A DNA stretch of 46,464 nucleotides from the NCBI GenBank assembly GCA_003667245.1, contig RCNN01000245.1:1-46464 (forward strand), given 5' to 3'. Made by a program: the position numbers and the translations under genes. Source of the stretch: Heterostelium multicystogenum. Taxonomy: Eukaryota; Evosea; Eumycetozoa; Acytosteliales; Acytosteliaceae. The notes under the pieces are model-generated. The model was not told where the DNA came from. It made no database searches and worked only from the letters and a program-made list of their open reading frames with translations. Shown here one piece after another: positions 27,301 to 30,300 of this stretch; position 1 is the stretch's first letter; each line of letters starts with the position of its first letter.

Positions 27301-30300
27301 TTTATCAACATTACCGATAGGTTTGTAACAAAACTTGGTTGCAACAAAACTCATCCGGTCAATTGGTTAGTGATGGAAAGATCCATGTCGATATCAAGAT
27401 GTTGCCCTGGGAAGACGACTTGCCAAAGGTTGATGAATATAGCGGAGACATCATCCCCTCCAGTGTGGAGCCATACACTTTTAGCTACAAGTTTAACAAG
27501 CGTGGAGCATATTCTATTCGCTTCACCTACGAATGTGAGGGACAGCCTGCACAGAGCCAAAGCCACAATATTTTTGTCCTCGGTGAGCAAACCCAAGCTG
27601 AGAAGGAGTTTATTAGCAATGACTCCAAGTCATTGAATCAATTCCGCGATCTTAGCTTTGACCTCACTTCATTCAAGGGCTCAGAGCTCGATTCAAAGCA
27701 CCCAATCAAACTTTCACTTAGTGTCAATGGTGTTCAGTCCACCAGGGACTCCAAGATTGGTGACAAGCTGGATATGTTGATTACATGTAAGCTCCAATCT
27801 GGAATAGGTTTTATCGTTCATTCCAAAAATAAGACTATTTTCAAGACCACTCAATTCAGCTTTACCGATGGACAATATAGATTCGAGCACATTGTCACTG
27901 AAAAGGACTTCCCATCGTTCAAATATACCATTTATGTCGAAGGTAAAGTGAGTGTGAATCACAAGAATATAATGGTGGAGAGATTTACCAGTGAATCTAT
28001 CACCAAGTGTTCTCCGTGAGCAAGGAGTCGAAGAAGCTCCAAGTTGAATTCCTCCCATATCGTAAATTCCAGTGTCCAAACTCTGACATGTCAATTGTAG
28101 CACGTATATTGGACCATCAAAAGCAACCAGTTGGCGGAGCAGAAGTCACCTTGGTCGTGGCCGATGAATCACTTTTGAGTCTGACAAAAAAGACAGTCGA
28201 CGGCTGGAATCCAATCGATTTGTTCTACCGAGATCAATATTCCTCGAATAAATGTGTTTCTCTCATGGACAACACCTTATTCTTTACACCATGCATCAAA
28301 GATGATGTGGTAATCCCAGCAGAGACCGTTGTGAACATTTCAGTCCGTTATCTTTCTGGTCGTGTCATCCAGATGAACTTGCCCTTGAATGCCGACATTG
28401 AGGAGGTACGCAAGGTCGTTTTGGAAAGAGACGGTCTTCCATTCACATCGCAGCGTCTGCTCTACAAGAACAAACAAATTGAAAAAGGAACACTCTTTGA
28501 AATTGGTATAACTGGAGATGATACTTTGAACTTGGTTATTCGTCTTTCCGGAGGTGGAAACACTGACGAGAAAGAAAACTTGGAAATTCTCAACCTGCCA
28601 GCCATCAAGCAAATCAAAGTCAGAGATAACTTTAAGCCTTTGGCCACTTTCCAAAGCAATAGATTCACTGACGAGAATGGTGAGGTTAAATTCGACTTCA
28701 AACTTCCAGACAACCTAACTAAATACCGTATTATGGCCTATGCTTGTACCAACCAATCATTTGGAAAGAGCGAAGAGTTCTTCACTTCAACATTGCCTGT
28801 GATGATTCGTCAGAATCCACCACGTTTCCTAAACTACAACGATGAATGCACTTTCCCAATCGTAATTTCAAACATTGTAGACTATGATGTCGAGGTCAAC
28901 TGCGCATTCCAAACAACAAATTGCTTGACAAGCACCAATGGATTCAAGTCTGTCATCCCAGCCAACTCTCGTATCATTGCGCCATTCAAGGTCAAGGCGG
29001 TCACCCCGAACGTCAAGTCCTTCTACCATGTTGTTCTTGCCAGTCGCATCGTTAATGCACCTGGAGTGGAAGCAGAGTTTACTGATGCCGTCAAATTCGA
29101 CTTCCCAATATGCTCGCCATCATCCATCGAATCCAATACCATCTCTGGATTTACCGATGCTTTGAAGGTAGTCTCCTCACACCCAATTAAATTCAATAAC
29201 TGGCAAGACTTTGATCAGGAGGTCGGTGGTCTCTCTGTCAACTTGTCAACCTCCAATATCACCCAAATGAAGTCCTCATACGACTACCTCATGAAATATA
29301 AACACTCTTGTTCGGAGCAACTTGCAAGTAAGTTGTTGTGTCTCGGAATTGTCAATTTGCTTCCGGAGCTTCTGGACATGGACAAAGACAAACCCTCTGA
29401 AGAAGCAATTAGCAAAGCCATGGAAGAGATGCTCACCATGCTCAAGAACAGATTGAAACCAACTGGTGAATTCAAATATTGGGATGGTGATACCTCCTAC
29501 GAGTATGTTAATGTTTACGTCTACTGGGTACTGAATATCCTCAATAAGGAGTTGGACGTTGTTATGCCAAGAGGACTTTTGGACAAAGCAGTACCCTATC
29601 TTGCCAATGCACTCAAGATTGATAAGAGCAGCAAGGAGTACACCAAATACAACAGAAATTCCTACCTAGTAAACAAAGCATTTGCACTCAGAGTATATGA
29701 AGAATTCAACATTGGCTATAATGCTGAAATCGATCCTATTTTGATCAATGAGGCAACTTCAAACTCGCCAATTGCAACTGACCTCTTGGCTATCCTTTTA
29801 CCAATTGCCCACGGCTCAACTCTTAAAAAATTTGCTCGATTGCTTGAAAACAAATTGGTCGTAACAGGATCATTGGCCTTCTTTGAAGGTGCAGACATTG
29901 ATGGATTCGGATCTTGCATGAGAACCGCATGTTGGGCTGCCCAGGCAATGATCCAAAAGGAGGAATGTCAGCAAATAATAGTCAAACTAATGGCTGGCAT
30001 TGAGGCTAAGGTCAAGGACAGCAATACCTCAATATGGTTCAACACCCAAGACAACGCACTGACAATGTACACTCTCTTCCTCTATTTCAACGACAAAGTC
30101 GTATCCAAATATAATGCGCAAGTCTATCTCAACGACTTTACCCTGGAGCAAAAACCAATCGAAATCAATAACGATTACCACCTACTACTCCAAATACATT
30201 CCAATGAAGACATTGATCAAGAATCAAGGTGAGCTCTTTATCGAGAAGAACGGTGCCGGTGACATGCACTACAGCTTGTCATTCCAATATGCAAAAATCA

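Follow-up and report, generated by a model that had tools for sequence, protein, structure and literature searches.

A gene on the forward strand of contig RCNN01000245.1 of Heterostelium multicystogenum (assembly GCA_003667245.1), which we analyzed over a stretch of 46,464 nucleotides (the window), encodes an alpha-2-macroglobulin (A2M)-type protein with a ubiquitin-like domain at the bait position. We regard this architecture as virtually certain to be real. The presence of such a domain at the bait site suggests an intracellular snare for ubiquitin-cutting proteases, found in social amoebae and Acanthamoeba.

Positions 28331-28555 encode 75 residues without a stop, in frame with the open reading frame (ORF) 27995-30232. 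Pfam analysis of the 741-residue product of this ORF (P0001) placed PF00240 (ubiquitin) at residues 111-180 with 34.7 bits (cut-off 25.4) and PF00207 (A2M) at residues 215-298 with 46.3 bits (cut-off 21), and the excised piece around 28331-28555 scored 40.3 bits against the same PF00240 cut-off. The sequence-only reading of the window, which had placed a ubiquitin-like domain and A2M domains in one open frame at the bait position, is thus borne out, with a significant profile match to ubiquitin. A chance match is excluded because local alignment of the 75 residues to ubiquitin (35.5% identity) scored 129, compared with a mean of 24 and a maximum of 52 for 2000 residue shuffles and a best score of 36 among the other 195 stop-free stretches of at least 60 residues in the window.

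The ubiquitin-like domain, which ends IRLSGG, lies between two halves of MG6, the interval that holds the bait; this placement was obtained by aligning the protein P0024 to Salmonella A2M (4u48_A) and matching the window by eye at the flanking motifs. The first MG6 half (28007..28237, ending ADESLLSL...DLFYRDQ) is, by eye via P0024, the counterpart of VDSGVLNITDYATPDPWQAFFGQK, ending at 917 of 4u48_A, and the second half, together with the PF00207 domain (28649-28900), occupies 28610..28900. Flexible linkers flank the domain, one before it at 28238..28330 and an acidic one at 28556..28609 whose first residue, directly after the GG, is Gly. In an alignment-based AlphaFold model, residues 111-180 had block-mean predicted local distance difference test (pLDDT) values of 83-92 and a strand-helix pattern that together fit a ubiquitin fold, and both linkers (residues 73-105 and 182-201) fell below 50. 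When folded by itself, with no alignment, piece 28307-28615 gave a poor model (pLDDT 47.5). The sequence-only reading had the MG6 half followed by the ubiquitin domain and the bait replaced or presented by a ubiquitin fold; the order was right, but some 31 residues, most of them modelled as disordered, lie between the two, and the domain is not a simple replacement, as it hangs from a flexible linker on either side within the bait interval.

In a structure search, the whole modelled piece matched A2M and complement types by fold. Its residues ~417-700 (29264..30106) form a thioester-domain helical fold comparable to C3d and C4d fragments (root mean square deviation 3.5-3.6 over 259-261 residues) and include the thioester motif CSEQ (29309..29320). 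A bMG10 domain follows in the next frame downstream (30330..30704; 86.5-87.1 bits, cut-off 26.2), and both PF00207 and bMG10, by which bacterial-type A2Ms are recognised here, score above their cut-offs in the window gene. The A2M protein with a ubiquitin insert described by the sequence-only reading is real, but its gene is longer than noted there, extending over about 23914-30749 and starting with another ubiquitin-like domain. This N-terminal domain (23914..24322, model start MKLTLL...) was placed by matching the gene model by eye to residues 1-128 of P0017, the intact 2255-residue orthologue from Heterostelium album; it is frame-broken here, contains an acidic insert, lacks a C-terminal GG and is intact in orthologues, apart from P0019, which is without its first part. 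No signal peptide was apparent by eye, and in six orthologues examined the ubiquitin-like domain stands at the very start or is preceded by no more than about 50 residues, most of them charged, suggesting that the protein is probably cytosolic.

Nine other proteins share the A2M-ubiquitin order (seven dictyostelid-type, one from Acanthamoeba castellanii and one transcriptome ORF, P0142), which argues that the architecture is not an assembly accident. With the post-bait region of the full-length model as query, 120 of 1000 matches were listed, and six of these carried PF00240: H. album PN500 (74%), Acytostelium subglobosum (52%), Cavenderia fasciculata (45%), Polysphondylium violaceum (39%) and two EukProt entries (48% and 43%) that fall among dictyostelids in our tree. 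The other 114 listed matches were without PF00240 and were bacterial where named. A second query, a paralogue from C47 described below, returned eight matches: four with Ras, three with PF00240 (A. castellanii, Dictyostelium citrinum and P0142) and one with neither. Eight of the nine relatives are 2177-2376 residues long and the ninth, the EukProt model P0021, is 3390; P0021 has a protein kinase N-terminal to the ubiquitin-A2M part, perhaps from merged gene models. Scans of seven relatives found two PF00240 stretches in P0017, P0018, P0020, P0142, P0143 and P0144 and one in P0022. P0142, named as a complete ORF of a TRINITY transcript assembly, has A2M, ubiquitin and A2M parts in one chain, which speaks against the ubiquitin-like segment being spliced out or belonging to a separate gene.

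Several searches were negative or led elsewhere. The 15 matches to P0001 as query included no dictyostelid, probably because subject lengths were limited to 0.55-1.75 times the 741-residue query, which excludes full-length proteins. Neither protein-search list included Dictyostelium discoideum, and Tieghemostelium lacteum was represented there solely by the Ras type, which does not show absence of the ubiquitin type. One scan of viral contigs with P0143 yielded no tblastn-confirmed relative. A match on C72, considered as an A2M paralogue, was rejected as the Ub-RPS27a fusion. The component domains are already annotated in databases, as a 'ubiquitin domain-containing protein' in H. album, as an 'Alpha2-macroglobulin domain containing protein' in A. 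castellanii and in precomputed Pfam lists. Literature searches of open-licence PubMed Central found no paper on a ubiquitin-in-A2M architecture, and one listed paper, PMC7235994, turned out to have no bearing on it; as far as these searches reach, this is an undescribed variant of a known superfamily.

The ten bait domains were located by a pattern requiring RL-x-GG, with one match per protein and x widened from S or F to S, F, H or R with the new sequences in view, and in the alignment to ubiquitin all ten so located end RL-x-GG; the LxGG-type tail remarked on in the first reading is kept, together with a thioester motif, in 10/10. Identity to ubiquitin was 33-38% in the eight dictyostelid-type domains, 75% in A. 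castellanii and 88% in P0142. R42, K48, R72, L73, G75 and G76 were kept in all ten, with K48 the sole ubiquitin lysine position so retained, and Q49 and V70 in nine. All eight dictyostelid-type domains have Leu or Phe at I44, Asn at H68 and S, F or H in place of R74. The claim that Lys48 and the hydrophobic patch are kept in the window copy holds for L8, K48 and V70 and fails at I44, which is Leu. K11 and K33 are Arg in all eight dictyostelid-type domains. With ubiquitin contact and core residue classes that were assigned and not computed, likeness to ubiquitin in these eight was 0.635 at partner-contact positions, 0.171 on the other surface and 0.48 in the core (p 0.00025), and in all ten 0.708, 0.284 and 0.552, respectively (p 0.0001). 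The residue after the bait GG was G in seven proteins, S in two and A in one.

The bait domain was also among the best conserved parts of the protein, unlike its linkers. Pairwise identity among the eight dictyostelid-type proteins was 0.546 in the bait domain, 0.543 in MG6b-MG7, 0.516 in the N-terminal domain, 0.483 in bMG10, 0.400 in MG6a and 0.368 in the thioester region, compared with 0.264 and 0.288 in the linkers before and after the bait domain. The N-terminal ubiquitin-like domain had no C-terminal GG in any of nine proteins examined, nor, by eye, in P0021. Downstream of the bait domain, each of the ten ubiquitin-A2Ms has one copy of C[ST]EQ, a Cys-x-Glu-Gln motif, and its Cys and Gln (C435 and Q438) are nearly invariant among 35 aligned rows that include bacteria.

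The same genome holds two further A2M-like genes. The C47 paralogue (C47:73299-74799) has, between its MG6 halves, a Ras domain (1.7e-39) in the permuted order G3-G4-G5-G1-G2, with a frame break near G1-G2, and reads YPYERTEN, not CxEQ, at the thioester site. It belongs to the DdiCPRas2 type published in 2008 by Elias and Novotny (PMC2430557), with 3933 residues in D. discoideum; a search for the name CPRas2 found no paper but this one. Permuted Ras motif order was present in three of the four database relatives of C47, the fourth, P0140, showing none of the motifs searched, and these Ras-type relatives are 3623-4267 residues long. Pfam found no Ras match in P0001, and the window protein is accordingly not of the DdiCPRas2 type. 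A word search of the available text of PMC2430557 found neither ubiquitin, bait nor thioester, and the Ras insert is not read as bait there; the same text mentions a second Dictyostelium COG2373-like protein without a GTPase, which could be a member of the ubiquitin-A2M family. The third A2M-like gene (C96:31000-40900) has PTEPPTQ-type repeats near its model start, a bait stretch in which inspection by eye revealed no clear insert and a very long branch (3.4).

The C96 gene was omitted from the second of two trees because of its branch length. On the post-bait sequence, one clade united the eight dictyostelid-type ubiquitin-A2Ms (100/100) and a second clade the Ras types (100/100), and 14 of 15 bacterial rows formed a group with A. 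castellanii and P0142 (97/99). Because the best tree separates the Acanthamoeba-type and dictyostelid ubiquitin forms, the ubiquitin bait may have arisen twice; the ubiquitin types were united in only 2% of bootstrap trees, and their single origin was not rejected by the approximately unbiased (AU) test (p-AU 0.182).

Known A2M traps act outside the cell or in the periplasm, as inhibitors of broad range whose baits are short and variable. The window family shares with the bacterial-type A2Ms (COG2373; Escherichia coli YfhM/ECAM and Salmonella A2M) the same domain order, an MG6 split by the bait interval and bMG10, and with its near bacterial relatives a CSEQ-type thioester, and differs from them in the ubiquitin-like domains in the bait and at the N-terminus and in having no signal peptide apparent by eye. 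At the same position the DdiCPRas2 type also has a protein domain of host type, but its insert is a circularly permuted Ras, its proteins are longer, C[ST]EQ is absent from 4/4 and it forms a separate clade. Ub-RPS27a resembles the window family in having ubiquitin, GG and then an extension; ubiquitin is N-terminal in such fusion precursors, whereas it is internal in the window family and diverged in the dictyostelids. According to the accessible text of PMC9918453, bait cleavage in A2Ms exposes the thioester, which captures the protease, and the E. coli A2M has been retargeted by exchanging part of the bait (A2Mcap). Specificity set by bait content would be common to A2Mcap and the trap proposed below, although the bait of A2Mcap is an artificial short peptide and that of the window family a folded domain. 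The CAGE complex (AbpF), considered as a candidate for the same family, is described in the accessible text of a preprint (PMC12485934) as a large eukaryotic protein, generally without a secretion signal, that is found in Dictyostelium and has some domains nearest A2M by fold, with a protease trap among its suggested roles. By this description alone, it differs from the window family in forming a tetrameric cage, in having no Pfam domains found in the Tetrahymena protein and in that no ubiquitin domain is mentioned in that text.

Amoebae host many intracellular bacteria, and amoeba-dwelling bacteria deliver deubiquitinases. Joining the known bait-cleavage and thioester mechanism of A2Ms to the conserved GG tail and thioester motif, we tentatively propose, at slightly below an even chance, that the protein is an intracellular bacterial-type A2M trap baited with ubiquitin and sprung by deubiquitinase-like proteases. 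The ubiquitin-like domain would be held between the two flexible linkers of a cytosolic A2M, and the bait would be cut after its GG tail by a ubiquitin-recognising protease of deubiquitinase type, plausibly one that a bacterium residing in the amoeba has injected. The A2M body would then rearrange, exposing the Cys-Gln thioester, which would bind the attacking protease covalently. Domain order, conservation, the thioester motif and the GG tail are observed; we infer the cytosolic site, the bond at the thioester, the cut in the bait, the change of shape, the capture and which protease is targeted. If this is true, amoebae would have, as a natural and specific counterpart of the bait exchange engineered in PMC9918453, a bait that is a conserved, folded host protein and that works probably inside the cell. 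Ubiquitin biology and the complement/A2M superfamily would then be connected in amoebae, and the Ras-A2M protein reported in 2008 would acquire a meaning. A broader proposal, that host signalling proteins (ubiquitin here, permuted Ras in the sister type) serve as A2M bait decoys for pathogen effector proteases and define a class of intracellular traps, is doubtful.

Several points weigh against a ubiquitin-baited trap. Ubiquitin chains were absent among the 50 rows listed by the structure search (Foldseek, VIA), which were filled by A2M and complement entries. C[ST]EQ was found in three of four bacterial relatives examined, P0023 being without it, and in none of four Ras-type proteins, so that a host protein in the bait is not always paired with a thioester. 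Animal A2Ms have Gly directly before the thioester Cys, a position not occupied by Gly here. The ten proteins were chosen by their ubiquitin matches and their bait domains found by a GG-requiring pattern, and the contact-surface comparison depends on residue classes that were assigned and not computed. Finally, host deubiquitinases should cut an exposed GG as well, so that shielding, or the loss of R74 in dictyostelids, must matter.

The retained contact-surface residues (R42, K48 and V70) and the conservation of the N-terminal domain despite its lack of GG are also what would be expected if both ubiquitin-like domains were handles for ubiquitin receptors (proteasome, autophagy or Cdc48-type) that tether the A2M or its prey to disposal, the trigger cut falling elsewhere in the linkers that flank the bait domain. 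We consider such tethering unlikely, since GG is unneeded for receptor binding, yet it is present in 10/10 bait domains and 0/9 N-terminal ones. A different role for the tail is raised by P0142 and A. castellanii, in which LRLRGG followed by Gly resembles an ordinary ubiquitin-fusion junction: host deubiquitinases might cut after GG during maturation, giving a two-chain protein as in complement C3 and C4, with an N-terminal half bearing a free, maybe conjugatable tail. This appears quite improbable, as the ubiquitin is internal and sits in the bait, where a cut is expected to spring the A2M, and as R74 is lost in the eight dictyostelid-type copies.

It is very improbable that the insertion is functionless decoration, or that the arrangement reflects gene decay or an artefact of this genome's assembly, even though the model of the whole gene (23914..30749; 2153 residues along a codon-usage path through three frames) requires 19 one- or two-base slips, two introns and one in-frame stop, because nine other proteins of 2177-3390 residues share the order, the bait domain ranks with the most strongly conserved segments, and the C47 paralogue, whose model also needs 19 slips, plus three introns, still shares 89% identity with the corresponding H. 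album protein across the region searched. The frame breaks are most likely assembly errors. HSP70 showed a near-full-length one-frame match in one of nine contigs with listed matches, and the myosin genes of the assembly are likewise split or stopped, introns contributing in both cases. More generally, conserved genes across the assembly are often broken by frame shifts and in-frame stops, which suggests an indel-prone assembly, again with a contribution from introns. No slip falls between about 28010 and 30175, and one at 30176 means that the last ~18 residues of ORF 27995-30232 are probably out of frame. Compared with H. album, the window copy shows an identity that tracks the pattern of constraint among orthologues: 0.88-0.90 for MG6b-MG7 and the bait domain, 0.46 for the linker preceding that domain and 0.50 for the part before MG6, where most slips lie.

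Other genes in the window include an ORF at 6532-7638, itself containing no P-loop, that holds the later part of a Ras-family domain and then about 260 residues of another kind, and two long ORFs at 9846-15091 with several TIG/IPT domains, the second with a weak EGF-like match below cut-off. Just downstream of the ubiquitin-A2M gene, a small gene (30971-31476) encodes two CDGSH iron-sulphur motifs and a hydrophobic stretch at its end, and a poly(ADP-ribose) glycohydrolase gene lies at 39059-40853 as two ORFs, corresponding to the helical and macro parts.
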